Shown here in pieces: positions 3,002-16,298 of a stretch of 64,000 nt of DNA. A program made the translations under genes and the position numbers. Within the stretch, counting starts at the first letter, position 1; every line of letters begins with the position of its first letter. Below the pieces are notes generated by a model. The model saw nothing but the letters and a program-made list of their open reading frames with translations. It was not told the DNA's origin and did not search any database. Source of the stretch: a virus; the IMG/VR virus record IMGVR_UViG_3300020084_000003, positions 1-64,000 of that record; one strand, written 5' to 3'.

Positions 3002-3030
3002 TTGACTTATATTTTATATTGTGATATTAT
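3002..3030 (+). promoter_or_regulatory. Sigma70-type promoter
   Basis: TTGACT at 3002-3007, a 17-nt spacer, and TATTAT at 3025-3030, 24 nt before the GIY-YIG-like gene at 3054. It is probably an early promoter used by unmodified host RNA polymerase. Confidence 0.7.
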
Positions 3031-3053
3031 GTATTTTTACGAAAGGAAATGTT

Positions 3054-3341
3054 ATGAGCTTTTTATACGTCATAGGCAACAATACAAATAGACAGAAGAT
3101 CGGTTTCAGTAAAGATGTTAGTAAAAGACTAAAGCAGTTACAAACTGGAAATCCCGATGAGCTATTTGTTCATTACAAAATAGAATGTTCCACTGACAAA
3201 ACCAGACAACTTGAAAAGAAAATCCATTTAGAACTTTCATACAAGAGACTGTCTGGCGAGTGGTTTAATATGACACCTGATGAAGCTAAAAACTACTTAG
3301 AATTTGCAAGAATTACTTGGTTAGATAAAATTATCATCTAA
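3054..3341 (+). CDS. T5orf172/GIY-YIG superfamily protein
   Basis: A 95-residue protein matching the T5orf172 (MUG113) branch of the GIY-YIG fold: a YVIG strand near the N-terminus, KIGFSKDVSKRLKQLQTGNP, then an LEKKIH helix and a GEWF motif. Such proteins are single-domain nucleases or DNA-binding modules in phages. The start at 3054 is chosen because GAAAGGAAA lies just upstream; an earlier ATG at 3021 lacks a site. It is transcribed alone on the plus strand from its own promoter, and its 3' end overlaps the convergent gene at 3321 by 21 nt. It could be a mobile nuclease or a small host-takeover factor. Confidence 0.75.
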   Translation: MSFLYVIGNNTNRQKIGFSKDVSKRLKQLQTGNPDELFVHYKIECSTDKTRQLEKKIHLELSYKRLSGEWFNMTPDEAKNYLEFARITWLDKIII

Positions 3342-6445: not shown

Positions 6446-7765
6446 TTATAGTCCTTTCAAATCAGATAGATATTGCTCTTCAACCGTTGTATCTTTCCAG
6501 AATTTAAGAGTTTCACTAGATGCAAGTATCTCGGAAGCTAGTTCTGAAACCATCTCAGATGTAAGGCTGATAATGTTTGTTCTTAGAAGCTTGTCAATAT
6601 CTTCTTCCTTAACACCCTTGACTTCTTTCATGATTTGTGCAGCTACATCATCCTTTGTCTTGTTCTTGAACTTGATCTTATCATCCAAAACTGCCATGAT
6701 GAAATACATCTTGACTTTCTTCCAACGCATTTCTTCTGAAATTTCAGAAACCTTGGTATCAATGCGCTTTTGAAGGATGGTCTTCTTATACTCACAGAAA
6801 TCTTTAATCAATTCCTTAACATCATCATAGACCTTTAGCTTGCCTTCATGATTGATTACAGTGATGTTTTCAGTCTCAGTTGTTTGAAGTTTCAATTCTT
6901 TGATGATTCGCTCATCACTCCAACCACCATTCGCCTGCTTCAACTTGACTTCAAAACGAAAACCTGATTTATCACACTTATCAACATATGACATGATTAC
7001 GCCATCGTCTTCAAGCTTGTTCAATACGTTAACAAATTTCTCACGGTCGTATCCATAAGGAACCTCTGTCACCGTAAACTCTGTCTTGTTTTTTCTAACA
7101 ATCTTTCCAGTAATGTATAGTCGCCCATCATCACCAAATTCTGCCGTTCCGTTAAATTGCGGAAACTTGACCCTCGGCGTAGTCTTGATCTTTCCAGTTT
7201 TGATATATTCAGCACATGCTTTCGCCACTTCTTTTTCATCGCGAGGAAGAATGTTTGTGGCAAACCCTGTAGCAATACCTTTTGCTCCATTAATCAAAAC
7301 CATAGGAATGATAGGGACATAGAACGTAGGAGGCAAATGCTCTGGATCATAATGGACCGGAGATAGATCAAAGTCAGTGTAATATTTGTAGAAATTTTCA
7401 TGCAATCTAGTGTAAGTATAGCGCGGCGCACCAGCCTCTTGAACAAGACGGGAACCAAAGCTACCTTCACTCTCAATAATAACTACATTGTTATACCAAT
7501 CTGCTGCCATTAGCTGACCGGCACCGGCACATGAAGTCTCACCATGATTGTATCCATATTTCGATACAACACCAGAAATTGCACTTACTTTCTCAAATAT
7601 TTTCTTTGAGTTTACAATTGATGAATATAGATAAAACCTTTGAACCGGTTTCAAACCATCAATCATGTTGGGAATTGCGCGAGATTCAACTGTATAAAGA
7701 GCGAAGTTTTTCCACTCTTTATTAGCCAATTCTACAATATCATATATTTTATCTGCACTTGTCAT
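6446..7765 (-). CDS. 52: DNA topoisomerase II medium subunit (gp52-like)
   Basis: A 439-residue GyrA/ParC-type DNA cleavage subunit, close to the T4 gp52 length. It has the winged-helix entry (SRAIPNMIDGLKPVQRR-like), and GAPRYTYTRL near residue 112 contains the candidate catalytic Tyr that forms the covalent DNA link. IATGFATNILPRD marks the tower region. It lacks the C-terminal DNA-wrapping domain of gyrase, as expected for T4-type topoisomerase. Its ATG overlaps the gp39 stop (ATGA), so the two subunits are translationally coupled. With gp39 it relaxes supercoils for phage replication. Confidence 0.95.
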   Translation of the reverse strand: MTSADKIYDIVELANKEWKNFALYTVESRAIPNMIDGLKPVQRFYLYSSIVNSKKIFEKVSAISGVVSKYGYNHGETSCAGAGQLMAADWYNNVVIIESEGSFGSRLVQEAGAPRYTYTRLHENFYKYYTDFDLSPVHYDPEHLPPTFYVPIIPMVLINGAKGIATGFATNILPRDEKEVAKACAEYIKTGKIKTTPRVKFPQFNGTAEFGDDGRLYITGKIVRKNKTEFTVTEVPYGYDREKFVNVLNKLEDDGVIMSYVDKCDKSGFRFEVKLKQANGGWSDERIIKELKLQTTETENITVINHEGKLKVYDDVKELIKDFCEYKKTILQKRIDTKVSEISEEMRWKKVKMYFIMAVLDDKIKFKNKTKDDVAAQIMKEVKGVKEEDIDKLLRTNIISLTSEMVSELASEILASSETLKFWKDTTVEEQYLSDLKGL

Positions 7766-9597
7766 TTAAACATAAACTCCTTGCGAACATCTGCATTATT
7801 ACCAAACATCATCTCTAGAAGAGATGGATCACTCACCGCAAGCGTGTCTAGTGTAGGCTTGTTAATCACCACATCATACTCCTTCTCTCGCAAAGACGCA
7901 AGACCTTTGATATAACGATGAGTATATCCTTTTGAATCAGTTTTAAACTCATTTGCGCTATCATAGGAATAGAACCACTTGGTATCTTTCCCATTTGTAG
8001 AAATCATGATTGGCGTTCTAGTCAGCTTTAATCTACCATCTTTCACCATACCCGGCCAGAATTTATAAAAGAAACCTAGAAGCAAGGTTGCAATCTTCTC
8101 ACCATCATGGTCTGCGTCTGACAAAATAGCCACATTCTGGTATGTCATATTTTTATATGAATTGGGGTCATTAATATTCAAACCAAGGATATTGATTAGG
8201 TCGCTAAACTCTTTGTTTGCCAGAACCTTTGCAGGGGTTTCTGTCCAAGCATTAAGAGAAACACCGCGAAGCGGGAAGAACCCTGTAGTATCTGGATTTC
8301 TGATCTTAATGCCAAAGCCTAGAGCCGAATCACCCTCTACCAAGAATAGAGTTGCATTTTTTCCACTTGCAGCAATGTGCTTGGCTACTTTTACCTTTTT
8401 AAGTTTCTTTTGTGCAATAGCTGCTTCACGTGCAGCTTCCGCTTCTTTTTTGTTAAGTTGAGCTTCAACAATGGGACCAATAACGTCTTCCATGTCCATG
8501 ATCTTCTTTGCGATATACTTGAAGTCGTATTTAAAAGACTTCTGGAAGTGGTCACGCACCTGTGTCATAGTATTGGTCAGGCGTTCTTTGGTTTGAGAAT
8601 CATACTTTGGATTGACGAAATTTCTTGCGAAAATTACAAAGGTGATGCCATTCTTGATAGTCGATTTGGATACTTCCACTTTATACTTGCGCTTAATCAT
8701 GGCAGTCATTTCATCAATAGTGCCATTAATGACATAATCGACGTATGCGCCACCAAGACGAGTATTCACACCGTTGATGAAGCAATTTTGACGGAAACCA
8801 TCTTCTGAGCCAGTAATGAGGAATGAAACATCATCAGTTGATGAGACAAATTGACTTCCGCCTTCTGGACCAAATTTTTCAGCATAAGCTTTGAATGTGG
8901 TGACACCATCGAAGAAATCTTTTTTACCGTTGAAAGTAAACTTTATTTCAGGGAAACACATTGAAAGGGAAATTAGTCGATCTTTAAGAAGACGAATGGT
9001 ATCAAAATCATTAATTGAATTGCATTCCATAAGATCATAGTCAGGAATAAATGAAACCTGTGTTCCGTTTCCTGCTTTGGTTGATTTTGTAGTTTTAATA
9101 TTAAGGCCACCATCAGAACATTTTACTGTCACCGACTGACCATCTCTCCAAGTTTTTCCTACAAAAGTTTTCGACATGAAGTTTGTGCATGAGCTACCTA
9201 CACCGTTAGCACCGATTGTTGTTCTTTCGTCATCAAAAGACGTGCCAGCATTAACGCGGGTCCATGCTGCTTCTGGACGCAATAGTTTTACGCCATTAGA
9301 ATCTACAACTTCATCTTGTGGAATACCGCGACCATTATCTGTAATGGTTATCTCTTCGCCATCAATGGAAACATCAATCTTATTCGCAAATTTAAATTGT
9401 GTTCTAATTGCTTCATCGACAGAGTTATCTAAAATTTCTGATATGATTTTCAGAACTGCTGGAACATATGTTACCTTCTCGTATTTTCCTAGAACAAAAC
9501 CTTCAATTGTTTCTTTGGAAACAGAACCTACATACATTCCCGGTCTTTTCCTCACATGCTCACGTGGGGATAAGATTTCGAATTTTTCTTTACTCAT
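7762..9597 (-). CDS. 39: DNA topoisomerase II large subunit (gp39-like, with TOPRIM)
   Basis: A 611-residue GyrB-type ATPase subunit. The GHKL ATPase motifs are EILDNSVDEA, DNGRGIP and GANGVGSS in the first 125 residues. A TOPRIM domain follows, with LFLVEGDSA near 417 and DADHDGEKI near 492. In T4 this subunit is split into genes 39 and 60; here both parts are in one continuous frame. The start at 9597 is chosen over 9615 because AGAAGGAAA lies just upstream. A consensus promoter at 9646-9674 lies immediately before it. Confidence 0.95.
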   Translation of the reverse strand: MSKEKFEILSPREHVRKRPGMYVGSVSKETIEGFVLGKYEKVTYVPAVLKIISEILDNSVDEAIRTQFKFANKIDVSIDGEEITITDNGRGIPQDEVVDSNGVKLLRPEAAWTRVNAGTSFDDERTTIGANGVGSSCTNFMSKTFVGKTWRDGQSVTVKCSDGGLNIKTTKSTKAGNGTQVSFIPDYDLMECNSINDFDTIRLLKDRLISLSMCFPEIKFTFNGKKDFFDGVTTFKAYAEKFGPEGGSQFVSSTDDVSFLITGSEDGFRQNCFINGVNTRLGGAYVDYVINGTIDEMTAMIKRKYKVEVSKSTIKNGITFVIFARNFVNPKYDSQTKERLTNTMTQVRDHFQKSFKYDFKYIAKKIMDMEDVIGPIVEAQLNKKEAEAAREAAIAQKKLKKVKVAKHIAASGKNATLFLVEGDSALGFGIKIRNPDTTGFFPLRGVSLNAWTETPAKVLANKEFSDLINILGLNINDPNSYKNMTYQNVAILSDADHDGEKIATLLLGFFYKFWPGMVKDGRLKLTRTPIMISTNGKDTKWFYSYDSANEFKTDSKGYTHRYIKGLASLREKEYDVVINKPTLDTLAVSDPSLLEMMFGNNADVRKEFMFK

Positions 9598-9645
9598 TAG
9601 AGTTTCCTTCTTCATATTTTACTTGTGATTCTCAAAACAGCCTTC

Positions 9646-9674
9646 ATCATACACGATGTGCATGATGTTGTCAA
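9646..9674 (-). promoter_or_regulatory. Consensus sigma70-type promoter for gp39/gp52
   Basis: On the minus strand TTGACA (9669-9674), a 17-nt spacer, and TATGAT (9646-9651). It lies about 50 nt before the gp39 start. A GANTC site (9627-9631) falls in the early transcribed region. Confidence 0.85.
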
Positions 9675-9758
9675 CCATGTTATAACAGTAATAAATGAAA
9701 AAGAATCATAAGATTCTATAACGACTCTATAGAATCTAACAGAATCAAATAATTATGA

Positions 9759-9788
9759 CGGGCGAAGCCCGAAAACGCGAAGCGTTTT
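9759..9788. terminator. Two tandem GCGAAGC mini-hairpins, terminator-like
   Basis: CGGGC-GAA-GCCCG (9759-9771) is followed directly by AAAACGC-GAA-GCGTTTT (9772-9788). Both cores are GCGAAGC, a DNA heptamer known for forming exceptionally stable mini-hairpins. On the minus-strand transcript the first hairpin met is followed by UUUUC, so it could terminate transcription arriving from uvsW. Confidence 0.6.
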
Positions 9789-9913
9789 TCATTACTTTAC
9801 AGAATCTTACGACTCTATAAGACTCATTAAGAATCATAAGATTCTATACATAATACTAGACTCTATAGTAATATTAGTATTATGATTCTTTATGATTCTT
9901 AGGGATTATAAAT

Positions 9914-9942
9914 GTTATAACGTAAATCGAGCCAAGAGTCAA
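9914..9942 (-). promoter_or_regulatory. Sigma70-type promoter with GANTC in its -35 box
   Basis: On the minus strand TTGACT (9937-9942), a 17-nt spacer, and TATAAC (9914-9919). The -35 box extends to TTGACTC and so contains a GANTC site (9936-9940). It would transcribe the GANTC-rich leader toward gp39. Confidence 0.6.
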
Positions 9943-9988
9943 GAAGAAAATTGAACTTTGTCGATTTATTTTTTTCTTCTTGACTCTT
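9934..9988. repeat. Perfect 17-bp inverted repeat
   Basis: Arms 9934-9950 and 9972-9988 are exact reverse complements around a 21-nt spacer. Each arm contains TTGACTC reading outward from the centre, giving candidate divergent -35 boxes. TAAATCGA (9923-9930) can alternatively pair with TCGATTTA (9961-9968) in the spacer, so two mutually exclusive folds are possible. Confidence 0.75.
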
Positions 9989-10036
9989 ACCCTATTTTAG
10001 AGTAGATTATAATAACCATAGTGACAGTGATTCGCA

Positions 10037-11554
10037 CTATAGGTCTACAGTGTAGACTTTAACCTCAAAACCTTCTTCTGCATATATCTCAAGTCTTTTA
10101 GCAAAATGCTGGTATGAATAGTTACCATTGTTTGTGCTGCTTGTCAATAGGTCGCCTATGTCATAAAGGACAGTATCATCTGATCCATTACCTTTTCTAA
10201 GTAATCTACCTATAGACTGCAATGTTTTAACTTCACCTTTGGTTCCAGATGCAAATATGGCATTGTCAATTCTTTTAATTGAAACACCAGTAGACGTGGT
10301 TCCTGATGAAGCAACAATATCATATACTTTTTCTGGATTAGATTCTATCTGCTGTCTCATTTCTTCTCTAACGTCAACATCTACTTTGCCATGAATAAAG
10401 AATACTACTCTTCCTTCTCTTTCAAACATTTCAGCAAGTATTTTACCATGAGTGTCTACATCATCAAACAAAATCAAATTGTTCTTCCCATCTAATGATG
10501 CAACAAGATTTTTAATGAACTCATTTCTAGAATCACTAGCCTTCAAAAATGCTTTCTCCAAAGGATATTTCATCTTACCTTTTTTGCTATTATGAATCTT
10601 GTTGTCATTCTCTAGCTGTTTCAATGCTTCTCTAAATCTTTTCTTTTCATCTTTTGTATGATTTAACAGTATTGCCTTGATTTTGAATTTTGCAGTTACG
10701 TTATTGTCAATCATCTCTTTAGTAGAAATGTATTTGCGTATCTTGCCAAACATGCCTTCAAGGTTCAGTCTATGCACTTTTGATTCGGAAGATATTGTTC
10801 CAGTAAATCCATGTCTGAAATAACATTCTGGCAAAGAGTCCATTATTGTTGTGAGTGATTTAGAGTCGAACGTATGCGCTTCATCTCCCAACACACATCC
10901 AAATTCAGAAAAGAACTTGCTGTCCTTTTTGACCAAAGTATGCCATGTTGAAACAACTATTTTTGTGCCGGGATCATCATTAACGCCATCGCCCATCATC
11001 CCTATGAATTCTCTTGGGCAATTATATGAAACAAAGTCGCTGACCATTTGTTTAGTCAACTGTATTCTAGGAACTACAATCAAAACTCTTACATCATAAT
11101 TTATGATATAAAACATTGCGATGATATATTGAATTAAAGATTTACCGGAACTGGTCGGACTGAGGTTCAAGCTTCTGCCATCTTTTATCGCGTCGGTAAT
11201 ATATTTCGCTTGATAGTCGTGCAGAGTGTATGGTATCTTTAGCTTGGTAGCGAGATTCGTGATATCTTCCTCGGTTACAGCGTCACCGTAAAACACATCC
11301 TTGTGTATGTCAATAGTGTATTCACGTTCATCCGCAAACTTTTTTAATAAATTTATGAGGCCAACATACAAGCTCTGGTCTTTGGTAGAGAATATACGTA
11401 TATAACCATCCCAGATGCGATTGCGGTATTTTGGGTGGTGTTGGTAGTTTTTTGGTCTGAAAGTGAAATAATCAGAAATTTCCTGTAAAATGCCTCTATC
11501 AGCTTCTACATGAAGATGTATAGCATTTTTGATAGTTACCTTAATATCAGCCAT
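10037..11554 (-). CDS. uvsW: UvsW-like RNA/DNA helicase
   Basis: A 505-residue superfamily 2 helicase, near the T4 UvsW length. The N-terminal substrate-binding domain contains RPKNYQHHPKYRNRIWDG. Walker A is PTSSGKS (133-139) and motif II is DEAH near 224. Motif III is FTGTI, and the C-terminal motif VI is SIGRLLRKG. UvsW unwinds R-loops and branched DNA and shuts off origin-dependent replication when recombination-dependent replication starts. The start overlaps the end of the inserted GIY-YIG gene by 8 nt. It sits downstream of uvsY as in T4. Confidence 0.93.
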   Translation of the reverse strand: MADIKVTIKNAIHLHVEADRGILQEISDYFTFRPKNYQHHPKYRNRIWDGYIRIFSTKDQSLYVGLINLLKKFADEREYTIDIHKDVFYGDAVTEEDITNLATKLKIPYTLHDYQAKYITDAIKDGRSLNLSPTSSGKSLIQYIIAMFYIINYDVRVLIVVPRIQLTKQMVSDFVSYNCPREFIGMMGDGVNDDPGTKIVVSTWHTLVKKDSKFFSEFGCVLGDEAHTFDSKSLTTIMDSLPECYFRHGFTGTISSESKVHRLNLEGMFGKIRKYISTKEMIDNNVTAKFKIKAILLNHTKDEKKRFREALKQLENDNKIHNSKKGKMKYPLEKAFLKASDSRNEFIKNLVASLDGKNNLILFDDVDTHGKILAEMFEREGRVVFFIHGKVDVDVREEMRQQIESNPEKVYDIVASSGTTSTGVSIKRIDNAIFASGTKGEVKTLQSIGRLLRKGNGSDDTVLYDIGDLLTSSTNNGNYSYQHFAKRLEIYAEEGFEVKVYTVDL

Positions 11555-12413
11555 TCAATATCCAATCTCTACATTTCTTAGTTTTGTTTGTTAACAGGTT
11601 GCTTACACTTGTTACTGGTATATTAGTATTTTTAATAAATTCGTGTCTAGTGCATTCCATTGTTTCTTTTGTTTTTGTGTTAAAAAACTTGTATATTTTA
11701 ACATCTTTGTTAAAGTTTTTAGTTCTATCAAAATCATCTATTGTAGATGCTAGTTTCCAACCTTTGTAGCTTTTCTCTTTGCCATTTAAAAGGTTTGTTA
11801 ATGAAGCAACATTTCCTGATAGTTTATTAAATTCACTTCTAGTGAGGGACATTTTTTCACCATTAGGTGAAATGAAATCATATTTATTTTTATCTAATTT
11901 ATAGTGATGGTCGTTTATTCTAAGTTTATAATTCAAGTAATCCTCAGTTATTGTGTCATTTTCTTCCATAATGAACCAGTTTTTATAGCTTCTTATGATA
12001 TTTAGCTTAACTTGACTAAAACCAGTTTTACTATTATATTTCTTAGACATGTCGTAAATCGTCGCATATTCCACTCTTCCATCTGCATTACCCCATTTAT
12101 ATATTGTAGGATCATACATAGGATGCGTTTTACCAGAATATTTCGGTGGATTGGCATTCAAGCACAAGTTCATACATAAACTATTTTGATAGTTATTTAG
12201 TATATGAAATTCTTCTCTAACTACATTTTCTTCGTCCGATCCACAATATTCTATGACTTCTTTAGTTAAGTTTGTCTTATTTTCATGAGTTTGTATCCAT
12301 TTACCGCTACCTAAATATGGGTCTTCAAGAGCATCTTCATATCTAGATGTAGTTCTTTTTCCAATATAAAATCTGCCATCTATGTCTGTGACTTTATAAA
12401 CATAGTGAATCAT
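11547..12413 (-). CDS. GIY-YIG homing endonuclease with DNA-binding repeats
   Basis: A 288-residue protein. The N-terminal GIY-YIG nuclease has YVYKVTDIDGRFYIGKRT and a downstream Glu-containing helix; the C-terminal part carries repeated NUMOD-like recognition modules (two SxxxLLxxKxKxxxGW-type units). These are typical of free-standing phage homing endonucleases that copy themselves into related genomes. It is inserted exactly between uvsY and uvsW and overlaps both by a few bases, so it has been fitted into the operon without disrupting either gene. Confidence 0.88.
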   Translation of the reverse strand: MIHYVYKVTDIDGRFYIGKRTTSRYEDALEDPYLGSGKWIQTHENKTNLTKEVIEYCGSDEENVVREEFHILNNYQNSLCMNLCLNANPPKYSGKTHPMYDPTIYKWGNADGRVEYATIYDMSKKYNSKTGFSQVKLNIIRSYKNWFIMEENDTITEDYLNYKLRINDHHYKLDKNKYDFISPNGEKMSLTRSEFNKLSGNVASLTNLLNGKEKSYKGWKLASTIDDFDRTKNFNKDVKIYKFFNTKTKETMECTRHEFIKNTNIPVTSVSNLLTNKTKKCRDWILNG

Positions 12414-12862
12414 CAGGCTACTCCTGACACAAATTTTTCGTATTCTATGATGTTTTTTATATCGAATGATCTTTGGTTTAGCTTTTTAACTATGTCTTCT
12501 AGGTATCTTATGCAATTATCGGTTTCCGCAATAGTTTCGATAAACTTTATTATGTCTGGGTCTGCGTCCATCACTTTTGATACTTCTGATTTAACTAGAC
12601 GTTTGCCATAAACAGGCCAGCCAAGTTCTTTCATTTTTGGTAGGTCCATTTCACCAGAGTAATAATCTATTTTGTTGGATTTTAATTCTGCATATAGAGA
12701 ATTTAGTTTATTCTTCTTAGACACCATCTTGACCAACATGCTGTAGTATTTCTGGTGCAAACTAAGCTGATTTCTGGAATGTTTTGATAGGTCGGGGTCT
12801 GTTCTAAAATCTTCGGAATCTTTGGACCACTCTTCATTTATAGTGTCAATTGTAATAGCCAT
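12413..12862 (-). CDS. uvsY: UvsY-like recombination mediator
   Basis: A 149-residue protein matching T4 UvsY (137 aa) in length, acidic N-terminus and helical organisation. YSMLVKMVSKKNKLNSLYAE corresponds to the lysine-rich DNA-binding region. UvsY helps load UvsX recombinase onto gp32-coated single-stranded DNA. AAAGGATAT precedes the ATG at 12862; an earlier in-frame ATG at 12919 lies inside the upstream gene. The position between a structural gene and uvsW agrees with T4 order. Confidence 0.85.
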   Translation of the reverse strand: MAITIDTINEEWSKDSEDFRTDPDLSKHSRNQLSLHQKYYSMLVKMVSKKNKLNSLYAELKSNKIDYYSGEMDLPKMKELGWPVYGKRLVKSEVSKVMDADPDIIKFIETIAETDNCIRYLEDIVKKLNQRSFDIKNIIEYEKFVSGVA

Positions 12863-12875
12863 ATTATATCCTTTA

Positions 12876-13361
12876 TTAATATCTTTCAATAGTGTAATAA
12901 TTATAGTTAAATGTAGCATCTACTATTAAAGGCTTAGTGTCTGTAAGAGCATTATCAAAGTTAAGATCGCTCAATCCAGACGGGAAAGCATCAAAGAATG
13001 TTACATTTATAGCAGGGTTTTTGCTGCTGTTAAGTATAATAACACTTATATCAGATTTTAGATCATATTTCAAGTCATTTTTCTTGTATTGTGAATGATC
13101 TTGTGGGAAAGCTATGTGATGCATCCAATCAAATAATTCCATATAGTTTTCCATTTTCTCATCAACAAGAAAAGACCATGTTAGCTCATGATAATCCAAC
13201 TTATCATAAGGCACTCTTAGTGGGTTCAATGGTGTTGGCTGAGTTATTGCGTTTGCAGAAATTGATGGAATATTTGTCTTCTGCAAAGTGAATGTTGTAT
13301 TGGGCAATCTCTTGACACTTCCAATGAAATTGTTGGGCGTCATGTAATTTATGAAGGGCAT
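12876..13361 (-). CDS. Tail-tube/tube-initiator family (gp19-like) structural protein
   Basis: A 161-residue protein. The pattern SVKRLPNTTFTLQKTNIPSI, then QPTPLNPLRVPYDKLDY.ELTWSFLVDE, then a C-terminal FFDAFPSGLSDLNFD segment is typical of the phage tail-tube fold seen in T4-like gp19 relatives. It probably forms part of the tail tube or its baseplate initiator. The start at 13361 has AAGAGGAAA upstream. Marine T4-like phages carry such a gene next to uvsY (from memory). Confidence 0.65.
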   Translation of the reverse strand: MPFINYMTPNNFIGSVKRLPNTTFTLQKTNIPSISANAITQPTPLNPLRVPYDKLDYHELTWSFLVDEKMENYMELFDWMHHIAFPQDHSQYKKNDLKYDLKSDISVIILNSSKNPAINVTFFDAFPSGLSDLNFDNALTDTKPLIVDATFNYNYYTIERY

Positions 13362-13400: not shown

Positions 13401-13428
13401 GTTCTTCTGAATGAAAAGGAGAAGAATC

Positions 13429-14151
13429 ATGAATATATTTATACTCACCGGAGCAGGAATTTCCGCAGATAGTGGAATGCAAACATTTCGGGACGTTAAT
13501 TCTGGAATCTGGGCGAATCACAATCTTCAAGATGTTTGCGTTGCTGGCGCTTTTGAAAAAAATCCAGAACTGGTGAACAATTTCTACAACATGCGGCGGC
13601 ATGAATCTGATTCGCATGAACCGAATGCGGCGCATTACGCTATTGCGGAATATCAGAAGAAAACCAAAAATAATGTTGTTTTGGTTACGCAAAATATCGA
13701 CAACTACCATGAGCTTGCTGGTTCGCCAGTAATCAAAATGCATGGTGATCTATACAAGATGTATTGCATCAATTGCGGCGAATATTTCCGGGTAACAAAA
13801 GGCTATGTTCACGATATCAATGAAGCTTGCCGGGATTGCGGTCAAACTCGGTCAATTCGGCCAGACGTTGTTTTCTTTGGTGAAGACATTGAAATCAACG
13901 AATTTGAATTGAATCGGTTTTTGCGGAAAGATGCAAATGGGGAACGGCTTGCCTACTTCATTGCCATTGGAACCTCTGGAAACGTCTATCCGGCTGCTGG
14001 TATGGTCAAGAAAGCACATTTTCACTCCAAGAAGGTGTATATCAACTTGACTCCTGACCATGCATCGCATATCTTCAATGACAAGCGAATCGGTCGGGCC
14101 AAAGATACTGTTCCGGCATTTTTTGAAGAGCTATATTTGATGCATGGTTAG
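13429..14151 (+). CDS. Sir2-family NAD-dependent deacylase (sirtuin)
   Basis: A 240-residue compact sirtuin. Diagnostic motifs: GAGISADSG (8-16) for NAD binding, TQNIDNYH (87-94), catalytic His105 in KMHGD, zinc Cys pairs at 113/116 and 134/137, RPDVVFFGE (144-152) and GTSGNVYPA (171-179). Sirtuins remove acyl groups from lysines or consume NAD. The start at 13429 follows AAAAGGAGAAG. By eye nearly every Arg codon is CGG (about 11 of 12), unlike neighbouring genes that use CGT or AGA, suggesting recent acquisition. Possible roles are altering host protein acylation or NAD-based defence. Confidence 0.92.
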   Translation: MNIFILTGAGISADSGMQTFRDVNSGIWANHNLQDVCVAGAFEKNPELVNNFYNMRRHESDSHEPNAAHYAIAEYQKKTKNNVVLVTQNIDNYHELAGSPVIKMHGDLYKMYCINCGEYFRVTKGYVHDINEACRDCGQTRSIRPDVVFFGEDIEINEFELNRFLRKDANGERLAYFIAIGTSGNVYPAAGMVKKAHFHSKKVYINLTPDHASHIFNDKRIGRAKDTVPAFFEELYLMHG

Positions 14152-14160
14152 GAGAATAAA

Positions 14161-15378
14161 ATGAGCGTTAGGACTTACATGGTTGGTGGTGCAGTTCGGG
14201 ACATGCTGATGGGCATCGAACCCAAGGATATTGATTATGTGGTCGTAGGCGCTACTCCTGATTACATGGAAAATGTTCTTGGAATGAAACGTGTCGGGCA
14301 GGACTTTCCAGTTTTTCTTGATGAAAATGGCGACGAATATGCTCTGGCGCGTCGTGAGCGTTCTACCGGTGAAGGCTATGTTGACTTTCAATTTGAAGTT
14401 GACGGTGTTTCTCTGGCCGAGGATTTGCTTCGTCGTGACCTGACCATCAATGCAATCGCTAAAAATAAGGACATTGGTAATATCTTTGATCCTTATGGTG
14501 GTCGTGCAGATATCGAAGATAAAATCTTCCGTCCTGTGTCGGATGCTTTCATGGAAGACCCGGTGCGCGTTCTGCGCGTTGCACGTCTACGTGCGCGTTA
14601 CGGCGCGGATTGGACCCTTTCTGACGAGCTACGTATTATGGTAAAAAAGATGGTGAAAAAAGGTGTTCTTTCAAATCTTCAACCTGATCGAGTTTGGAAA
14701 GAAATGAGCCGTGCGCTCATGGAACCAAACCCTCGCCTTTTCTTTGATACTCTATATGAATTGGATGCTTTACATGTAGTTTTTCCTGAGATTTATAAAA
14801 TGTTGACTTCGTTGGAGCCAATTTTTTATCATCCTGAAAAAAATACGTATGAACATACCATGTTGGTTCTTACTCAAGCTGCTAATTTTGGATATGATAT
14901 TGAAACCCGATTTTCATGCTTGATGCATGACATTGGCAAAACTCTGACGACTTTTGATAAATTTCCTGCACATTATGGTCATGATATTAAAGGTGTAGAG
15001 CTTGTTGAACAATTTGGACACAAATATAAAATTCCGAGTAAGATGATTAAAATAGCAAAATTTGCTACCAGATATCATATGTATGGGCATAAGCTTGGAG
15101 AAATGAATCCAAAGACAATAGTAAAAATGTTTGATGAAATCAATCTTTCTTCCCAGAAAATTGATTTCGTTGTAAATCTAAAAAACGTTTTTGAATGTGA
15201 CGAAAGAGGTCGGCTTGGTTACGAACATGTAATTGTAGATGATAAATCAATTATCATTGATTGGGCTAATTCTTATATCGGTGTTAAATTTGATGATGTG
15301 TTTCCTAATGGAGAAACAAATGTTAATAAGATTAAAGATGGGATGTTTAGAAAAAGATGTGCAGCGATAAAGAAATAG
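14161..15378 (+). CDS. cca: CCA-adding tRNA nucleotidyltransferase with HD domain
   Basis: A 405-residue protein, close to bacterial CCA enzymes (about 410). GGAVRD (9-14) and DIDYVVVG (23-30) are the class II nucleotidyltransferase core; RRDLTINAIA follows; a C-terminal HD phosphohydrolase motif (LMHDIGK, near 254-260) is as in the multifunctional bacterial enzyme. It would add or repair the 3' CCA of tRNAs. Arg codons switch from CGT/CGC to AGA after about 14750, so the 3' third has different codon use. The 3' end overlaps a GIY-YIG gene by 22 nt but ends with a normal-looking C-terminus. Confidence 0.93.
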   Translation: MSVRTYMVGGAVRDMLMGIEPKDIDYVVVGATPDYMENVLGMKRVGQDFPVFLDENGDEYALARRERSTGEGYVDFQFEVDGVSLAEDLLRRDLTINAIAKNKDIGNIFDPYGGRADIEDKIFRPVSDAFMEDPVRVLRVARLRARYGADWTLSDELRIMVKKMVKKGVLSNLQPDRVWKEMSRALMEPNPRLFFDTLYELDALHVVFPEIYKMLTSLEPIFYHPEKNTYEHTMLVLTQAANFGYDIETRFSCLMHDIGKTLTTFDKFPAHYGHDIKGVELVEQFGHKYKIPSKMIKIAKFATRYHMYGHKLGEMNPKTIVKMFDEINLSSQKIDFVVNLKNVFECDERGRLGYEHVIVDDKSIIIDWANSYIGVKFDDVFPNGETNVNKIKDGMFRKRCAAIKK

Positions 15379-16298
15379 TTGGTTATGTGTATAAGACAAC
15401 AAGAATTTCCACAGGTGAATTTTATATAGGAAGGCACCTGTGGAAATCAGAAACTATAGACGAAGAATATTTCGGAAGTGGTTTATGGGTTGAGAACTAT
15501 AAGAAGAAATATAAAAGAATTTGGAAAAATGACTTAAAATGTGAAGTAATAGAGTATCATACAGATATTGTTGATTTATATAAATCAGAGATTGAACATA
15601 TAAGAAGAAACTATAAAGATGTTTTAAATAAAAATTTATCAATGAGCGGAGATGGGACGTTAAGTCCTCAATATAAATCGGATAAGTTTTTTTGGATCAA
15701 TATAGAAACTGGTGAATGTATCCATGCAACCCGATTGGAAATGTTTCATAGGATAGGTTCTAAAAGAACTCAAATAACTGGCTGTATAACCGGAAGATAT
15801 TATTCCGTTTCTGGATGGTTCTTCATGGGTAAAGAAAAGATGAACGTAGATTTGAATGTTATTATTAATAAAATTAAAAGAATGGGAGAATACGCCTATA
15901 ATTTTGATTCTAAAGAATATAAATGGATAAATTCTAATGGTGATATTGTATACAAAAATCAGACACAAATGGCTGAGTTATTGCACTGCAATAAGTCTAT
16001 GGTAAATCAAGCTATCAAAGGAACTAAATTGTCAGTAAAGGGTTGGTATTTATTCGACAGATATGATCCTGATATTGTAAATAAAAGCGATCAAGTAGGA
16101 AAATACTCCTCTTCATATGTAAAAGAAACTTTCGATTGGGTATATCCGAATGGAGATATAGTATTTTCAAAAACACCTTATGAAGTTTTTATAGAATTGG
16201 AGTTGAAAAGCAGAAGCCATGTTGGAAGAGTATCTAGAGGATTAATTTCACAATATAGAGGTTTAAAATTATACCGTGGCAGCGAAAAAAGTTCTTGA
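15357..16298 (+). CDS. GIY-YIG homing endonuclease with three recognition repeats
   Basis: A 313-residue protein. The N-terminal GIY-YIG domain has VGYVYKTTRISTGEFYIGRH and a catalytic Glu-bearing helix (KSEIEHI). Three C-terminal repeats share an FxWIN/YPxGD motif followed by a helical module and a GW end, resembling NUMOD DNA-binding units. It overlaps the end of cca by 22 nt in another frame. A perfect 12-bp inverted repeat (15406-15417/15435-15446) lies at codons 17-30. Probably a free-standing homing endonuclease targeting cca. Confidence 0.88.
   Translation: MCSDKEIVGYVYKTTRISTGEFYIGRHLWKSETIDEEYFGSGLWVENYKKKYKRIWKNDLKCEVIEYHTDIVDLYKSEIEHIRRNYKDVLNKNLSMSGDGTLSPQYKSDKFFWINIETGECIHATRLEMFHRIGSKRTQITGCITGRYYSVSGWFFMGKEKMNVDLNVIINKIKRMGEYAYNFDSKEYKWINSNGDIVYKNQTQMAELLHCNKSMVNQAIKGTKLSVKGWYLFDRYDPDIVNKSDQVGKYSSSYVKETFDWVYPNGDIVFSKTPYEVFIELELKSRSHVGRVSRGLISQYRGLKLYRGSEKSS
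15406..15446 (+). promoter_or_regulatory. Intragenic 12-bp hairpin near 5' end of GIY-YIG gene
   Basis: Perfect arms at 15406-15417 and 15435-15446 with a 17-nt loop, inside codons 17-30. One of several 5'-proximal coding-region hairpins in the window. Confidence 0.6.

Follow-up and report, generated by a model that had tools for sequence, protein, structure and literature searches.

A GANTC-rich hairpin array in the predicted leader of topoisomerase gene 39 of a T4-like phage: a candidate methylation-responsive element

Introduction

GANTC is the cell-cycle methylation motif of Alphaproteobacteria, in which it is the target of CcrM. Phage regulatory DNA controlled by a host methylase is familiar from the Dam/GATC system, namely from the Mu mom promoter and from pac and oriR of P1, and the opening of GATC-rich oriC and of the P1 origins depends on methylation. 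In T4-like phages, early and replication genes are preceded by sigma-70-like promoters and 5′ leader structures are found, and in T4 both uvsW and uvsY are tied to origin use. For Caulobacter, YGAKTCK is the sequence context reported for activation by GcrA (PMC7987155). Alphaproteobacterial phages commonly encode methyltransferases that copy the specificity of CcrM, enzymes whose purpose the literature treats as unresolved (PMC7139368, PMC5537653). Small phage enzymes with an NPPW motif, from alphaproteobacterial hosts, methylate GANTC (PMC5537653).

Here we analyze a 64-kb stretch of viral DNA (the window), which is the beginning of a 284,776-bp T4-like phage record. An earlier note, based on the letters alone, had taken the DNA for that of a phage and singled out an intergenic region saturated with GANTC as a candidate methylation-controlled origin or switch. 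The phage assignment is borne out. The record is T4-like and encodes UvsW and the gene 39 topoisomerase. The latter is ~50% identical to gp39 of Vibrio phage KVP40 and KVP40-type phages and 55–59% identical to proteins of environmental T4-like contigs.

Results

The intergenic region, hereafter array A (9627–10033, 407 bp), contains 17 GANTC sites versus 1.14 expected from the local composition, and 13 of these fall within 196 bp (9703–9898), where 0.53 would be expected (Poisson P(≥13) 2.6e-14). The recount agrees with the earlier one at every position. Both copies of the palindrome noticed then were recovered (AGAATCATAAGATTCT, 9702–9717 and 9830–9845), as was the −35 box overlapping a GANTC site (TTGACTC, 9936–9942, minus strand). 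The spacing of the sites is regular, with nine out of 12 gaps measuring 9–11 bp (p < 2e-4 versus random placement). At the center of the array is a pair of GCGAAGC hairpins, flanked by two blocks of five GANTC each (Table 1). The predicted promoter P1 points through the array toward gene 39, and each arm of the 17-bp inverted repeat (9934–9988) contains one GANTC.

Table 1. Coordinates of array A and of its surroundings in the window
Feature	Position	Strand	Details
Topoisomerase subunit A-like, gp52-like	6446–7765	minus	
Topoisomerase II large subunit, gp39-like (gene 39)	7762–9615	minus	downstream of array A
Predicted promoter P2, TTGACA-N17-TATGAT (11/12)	9646–9674	minus	between array A and gene 39
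Predicted structured leader, if transcribed from P1	9695–9905	minus	top-ranked fold: 200-nt window 9701–9900
Left block	9703–9746		five GANTC at 9703, 9712, 9723, 9732, 9742; gaps 9–11 bp
Hairpin core, first	9759–9771		cGGGC-GAA-GCCCg
Hairpin core, second	9772–9788		AAAACGC-GAA-GCGTTTT
Right block	9802–9844		five GANTC at 9802, 9811, 9821, 9831, 9840; gaps 9–10 bp
Distal GANTC sites	9859–9898		at 9859, 9884, 9894
Predicted promoter P1, TTGACT-N17-TATAAC	9914–9942	minus	from sequence; −35 overlaps GANTC 9936–9940
Perfect 17-bp inverted repeat AAGAGTCAAGAAGAAAA / TTTTCTTCTTGACTCTT	9934–9950 / 9972–9988		21 nt between arms
UvsW helicase (uvsW)	10037–11554	minus	upstream of array A
uvsY	12413–12919		

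Array A has two sister copies. When the whole record was scanned for groups of three GANTC in which neighbors are separated by no more than 40 bp, two further dense clusters were found, B (119.09–119.23 kb) and C (156.3–156.6 kb), both weaker than A, and the scan yielded no others. Each of the three carries at least two GCGAAGC (spaced by 15 bp in A and B and by 17 bp in C), a doubling that occurs nowhere else in the record, and each lies directly downstream of a predicted minus-strand sigma-70-like promoter (TTGAC-TATAAN). Cluster B is the 5′ leader of an adenine methyltransferase gene of the NPPW type, reaching from the predicted start to the Shine–Dalgarno sequence and ATG of this 181-aa gene, and C precedes a small early gene. 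The alignment of A and B covers the hairpin pair plus the following TCATAATT...GATTCTGTTA. Within the hairpin pair, five out of 12 base pairs are altered on both sides and none is broken, as judged from two sequences only. The plus strand of A also has a terminator-like hairpin at 9771–9789, which was not accepted as the function of the array, because in B these hairpins recur between genes that diverge. The earlier note mentions neither the sister arrays nor the hairpin core, and it is likewise silent on the phage methyltransferase and the strong fold.

We tentatively read array A as a promoter-proximal, probably methylation-responsive regulatory leader and not as an origin. Together with B and C it would form a set of three composite elements close to promoters, each placed where a minus-strand transcript is predicted to have its 5′ leader. 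Every copy combines GANTC sites, which in A recur at intervals of roughly a helical turn, with a pair of highly stable GCGAAGC hairpins. Methylation of these sites by the host CcrM and/or the phage methyltransferase would alter how proteins bind to the array or how its strands open, and in turn the level of transcription from the upstream promoter. In this way the supply of topoisomerase and methyltransferase could depend on how far the phage DNA is methylated. The methylation switch put forward in the earlier note is plausible because the array is promoter-proximal. Furthermore, several distinct stems of A are built with GANTC, and the motif turns up once more in B and C. This reuse, the helical phasing of A, the link to a methyltransferase and the fixed positions of GANTC in promoters (see below) favor a role of GANTC at the DNA level.

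The strongest rival is an RNA leader. According to this explanation, the P1 transcript and its counterparts from B and C would adopt a multibranch fold containing two UUC-loop hairpins, which would control stability, translation or termination, and GANTC would be overrepresented only as a by-product of short self-complementary units serving as interchangeable stems. We regard this as possible, though less probable than a methylation-responsive leader. An RNA role is favored by the fold, the compensatory changes and the leader position. Among 5,744 windows of 200 nt, drawn from 144 kb, the minus-strand folds of A occupy ranks 1–3 and that of B rank 4 after GC correction, and against dinucleotide shuffles both A and B reach z = −7.3. 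When the GANTC sites and hairpin cores were held fixed and only the spacers shuffled, the minus strands of A and B still gave z of −4.0 and −4.8, respectively, with none of 200 shuffles folding as well, and the plus strands about −2.5. A and B thus contain genuine base pairing over and above the GANTC sites, with either RNA or DNA as its acting form. The five compensatory changes in the hairpin pair, with no pair broken, and the extent of B from the predicted start to the ATG of its gene point the same way. However, the strand preference is weak: the energy gap of minus over plus was reached by 42/300 shuffles for A and 11/300 for B, and strand asymmetry was accordingly rejected as proof of RNA. 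In addition, C folds unremarkably (z −0.9 in the spacer-only test) and its hairpins pair better on the plus strand, and a search of 104 kb against Rfam 15 at gathering score returned two tRNAs only, with no match to an array. Finally, structure alone leaves the same palindrome in separate stems, the 10-bp phasing and the GANTC of promoters unexplained.

It is improbable that the array arose by repeated inverted duplication of the AGAATCATAAGATTCT unit and was kept by drift with no function linked to GANTC. The two identical 16-bp palindromes and the nested repeats would fit such an expansion, as would the confinement of the array to one lineage. The earlier note had held that lack of conservation in relatives, or similar density elsewhere in the genome, would refute its proposal, and both objections hold here in part. 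As for conservation, the only relative found to carry the array is a 99.99% identical contig; no match was obtained by blastn in 50,697 phage records. Besides that contig, searches of viral contigs with GGGCGAAGCCC-N6-GCGAAGC, with the 16-bp palindrome and with GCTTCGCCC..TCATAATT gave chance or coding matches. The array is absent from 80 related T4-like loci with a homologous topoisomerase, none of which exceeds 5 GANTC per 200 bp, and no comparable GANTC arrays are present in PhiLM21 and ten further phage records that encode a homolog of the methyltransferase, 11 records in all. As for density, clusters recur in the record at 119.1 and 156.3–156.6 kb, in weaker form, and a diffuse excess is seen at 127–163 kb. 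Against a drift-kept expansion, A, B and C retain the hairpin pair and the promoter position despite their diverged sequences, and the hairpins of A and B covary.

A replication origin with methylation-dependent opening, the other possibility raised in the earlier note, is unlikely. The DNA is AT-rich, palindromic and rich in a methylation motif, it adjoins uvsW and lies near uvsY, and stable minihairpins together with an AT-rich inverted repeat would suit an origin. Nevertheless, the turn in GC skew lies near 13 kb, where it goes with gene direction, and not at 9.7 kb; the record has three elements of this kind, of which at least one is clearly a gene leader; and the array is missing from the 80 T4-like loci. 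On account of the skew, the three copies and the lack of conservation, an origin is not supported.

Outside the array, GANTC is scarce. The whole window has 149 sites versus 258 in dinucleotide shuffles, and without the array the ratio to expectation is 0.62. This resembles contigs with the methyltransferase of alphaproteobacterial phages (0.67) and not T4-like relatives (0.95). Two palindromes of this type that served as controls are likewise underrepresented in the window (GTNAC 0.67, CTNAG 0.53), so the scarcity of GANTC alone proves little. The scarcity does not extend to 127–163 kb of the record, where 283 sites were found versus 136 expected. Dense sites in an otherwise GANTC-poor genome might suggest a decoy that titrates host CcrM, GcrA or the phage methyltransferase with no local effect, but this is very unlikely, since ~27 array sites are few next to the several thousand that an alphaproteobacterial chromosome carries (3,900 are given for Brevundimonas in PMC7987155) and a sink would not need placement in gene leaders. 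Other features of the record include several candidate stand-alone GIY-YIG-like homing endonucleases, recognized by their sequence alone (window 3021–3341, 11547–12413 and 15357–16298; L096:15866–16603), one of them between uvsW and uvsY, and a Sir2-like ORF (window 13411–14151).

The 181-aa product of the gene after leader B (METHYLTRANSFERASE) matches the PHROG_799 DNA methyltransferase (E 5e-27) and has the motifs EPFCGRGDL (SAM-binding) and SNPPW, in which N95, P96, P97 and W98 are invariant across 11 homologs. It is distantly related to PhiLM21_p027, a GANTC-specific enzyme (hhalign probability 93%, E 2.5e-7, 83 columns; BLASTP E 4e-4). Given this distance, GANTC specificity is only inferred and the enzyme is best described as putatively GANTC-specific. 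Neither a CcrM-like methylase (PF01555) nor GcrA (PF07750) was found in the phage record. A PnuC-like nicotinamide mononucleotide transporter gene (L096:19342–19995) is divergent from the methyltransferase gene. Homologs of the methyltransferase in 40 phage records belong nearly all to alphaproteobacterial phages, together with two Microcystis phages, and the 65 bacterial loci with a homolog are mostly alphaproteobacterial, the few others being mostly metagenome bins. Because the homologs are almost confined to alphaproteobacterial phages, a CcrM-bearing alphaproteobacterial host, as the earlier note had supposed, is likely. A promoter type shared with an Erythrobacter phage (see below) suggests, without proving, a host of the Sphingomonadales type.

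GANTC is also a part of predicted promoters, in the −35 of P1 and in the early region, which has two predicted classes. Class 1 is TTGAC-N17/18-TGATATTCT; all 23 strict matches have a GANTC within the 25 nt that follow the −10, versus 16% of random places. At 127–163 kb (L097–L099) it is present in at least 40 near-identical copies, many of them back-to-back with class 2 promoters. Many class 1 promoters have a terminator-like hairpin ~60 nt or less downstream and hence may yield only very short RNAs. Class 2 is TTGACGANTC-N19/20-GANTC, found in ten copies on the minus strand directly before the Shine–Dalgarno sequence and ATG of genes at 136–154 kb of the record (136.6–154.2 kb; L097/L098). 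Its two GANTC are 24–25 bp apart, with a peak at 25 bp, and both are better kept than the −10. At 127–163 kb, 57% of GANTC contexts are YGAKTCK and 32% YGATTCG, versus 37% and 14% in the window background. Array A shows no such enrichment of the GcrA-type context (YGAKTCK 6/13, YGATTCG 0/13). Single GANTC sites also occur in the TTGACGAATC −35 boxes at window positions 16295 and 23385 (plus strand), the latter directly preceding a tRNA-Ile gene (23442). At 128.3–128.4 kb, class 1 promoters converge within one long inverted repeat (TGATATTCTGAAATAGAATC...GATTCTATTTCAGAATATCA), and a terminator-like palindrome at 156.79–156.82 kb, AAGGTGATTCGGAATTTCCGAATCACCTT, consists of two TGATTCG units.

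Class 2 promoters are not restricted to this record. Contig L224, whose terminase shares 84% identity with its counterpart in Erythrobacter phage vB_EliS-L02, has 13 copies, and the unrelated phage isolate vB_EliS-L02 itself (OL955261) has 21, at 132.5–149 kb. The reversed control pattern had no matches in the record, L224 or the Erythrobacter phage. Lacusarx has four matches and other alphaproteobacterial phages zero to two; none was found in KVP40 and two other schizoT4-type phages or in phiCbK and CcrColossus. In 385 alphaproteobacterial genomes there were six matches, four of which represent one related sequence, apparently the opposite strand of sigma-factor coding sequence as judged by eye. 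In 151 Sphingomonadales genomes, the reversed control gave 24 matches and the promoter pattern itself 22. A common host promoter type was therefore rejected and, given no excess in Sphingomonadales chromosomes, class 2 is a phage promoter type. Its sharing between unrelated phages reflects descent, transfer or convergence. In the description of vB_EliS-L02 we found no mention of the paired-GANTC type.

Discussion

Several observations weigh against a methylation-responsive leader: the GcrA-type context YGATTCG is missing at the sites of array A, only a single phage lineage is known to have the element, folding beyond the contribution of GANTC indicates RNA too, and the eleven other phage records are without comparable arrays. 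The paired-GANTC promoter family is a more general and more testable discovery than the array. Taken together, the phage may control some of its genes through DNA methylation. In its broadest form, which we consider doubtful, a phage-wide transcription programme would be written in CcrM sites, with early promoters of the form TTGAC-GANTC-N19/20-GANTC, GANTC hairpin arrays in the leaders of replication and methylation genes, and a phage methyltransferase closing the loop; the promoter type is common to unrelated Sphingomonadales phages and shows no excess over control in the chromosomes of their hosts. A phage in which GANTC is mostly excluded, yet fixed in early promoters and in the topoisomerase and methyltransferase arrays, offers a direct test of methylation-read transcription, and the cultured Erythrobacter phage vB_EliS-L02, with its 21 such promoters, makes the question testable in an isolate.

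Among described systems, CcrM/GcrA-controlled promoters of Alphaproteobacteria (PMC7987155, PMC3667746) also have GANTC in promoter regions, and the early promoters of the phage have it beside the −35, often as YGATTCG. By contrast, dense hairpin arrays are not described in the available portions of those papers, the sites of the array lack YGATTCG, host chromosomes show no enrichment of the paired-GANTC promoter and the phage record encodes no GcrA. The Paracoccus prophage enzymes and PhiLM21_p027 (PMC5537653) resemble the phage methyltransferase in being small and of the m6A type, with SAM-binding and NPPW motifs, and in being encoded by phages of alphaproteobacterial hosts; the difference is the GANTC array in the leader of the present gene, which the checked homologs do not have.

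As in Mu mom, P1 pac and oriR, sites of a host methylase are clustered in a phage control region, but here the motif is GANTC and not GATC, and it occurs in three paralogous copies with a hairpin core in a T4-like phage. With the early promoters of T4-like phages the present ones share the sigma-70-like type and the placement before early and replication genes. They differ in having GANTC at fixed positions and, in class 2, in having two such sites 24–25 bp apart.
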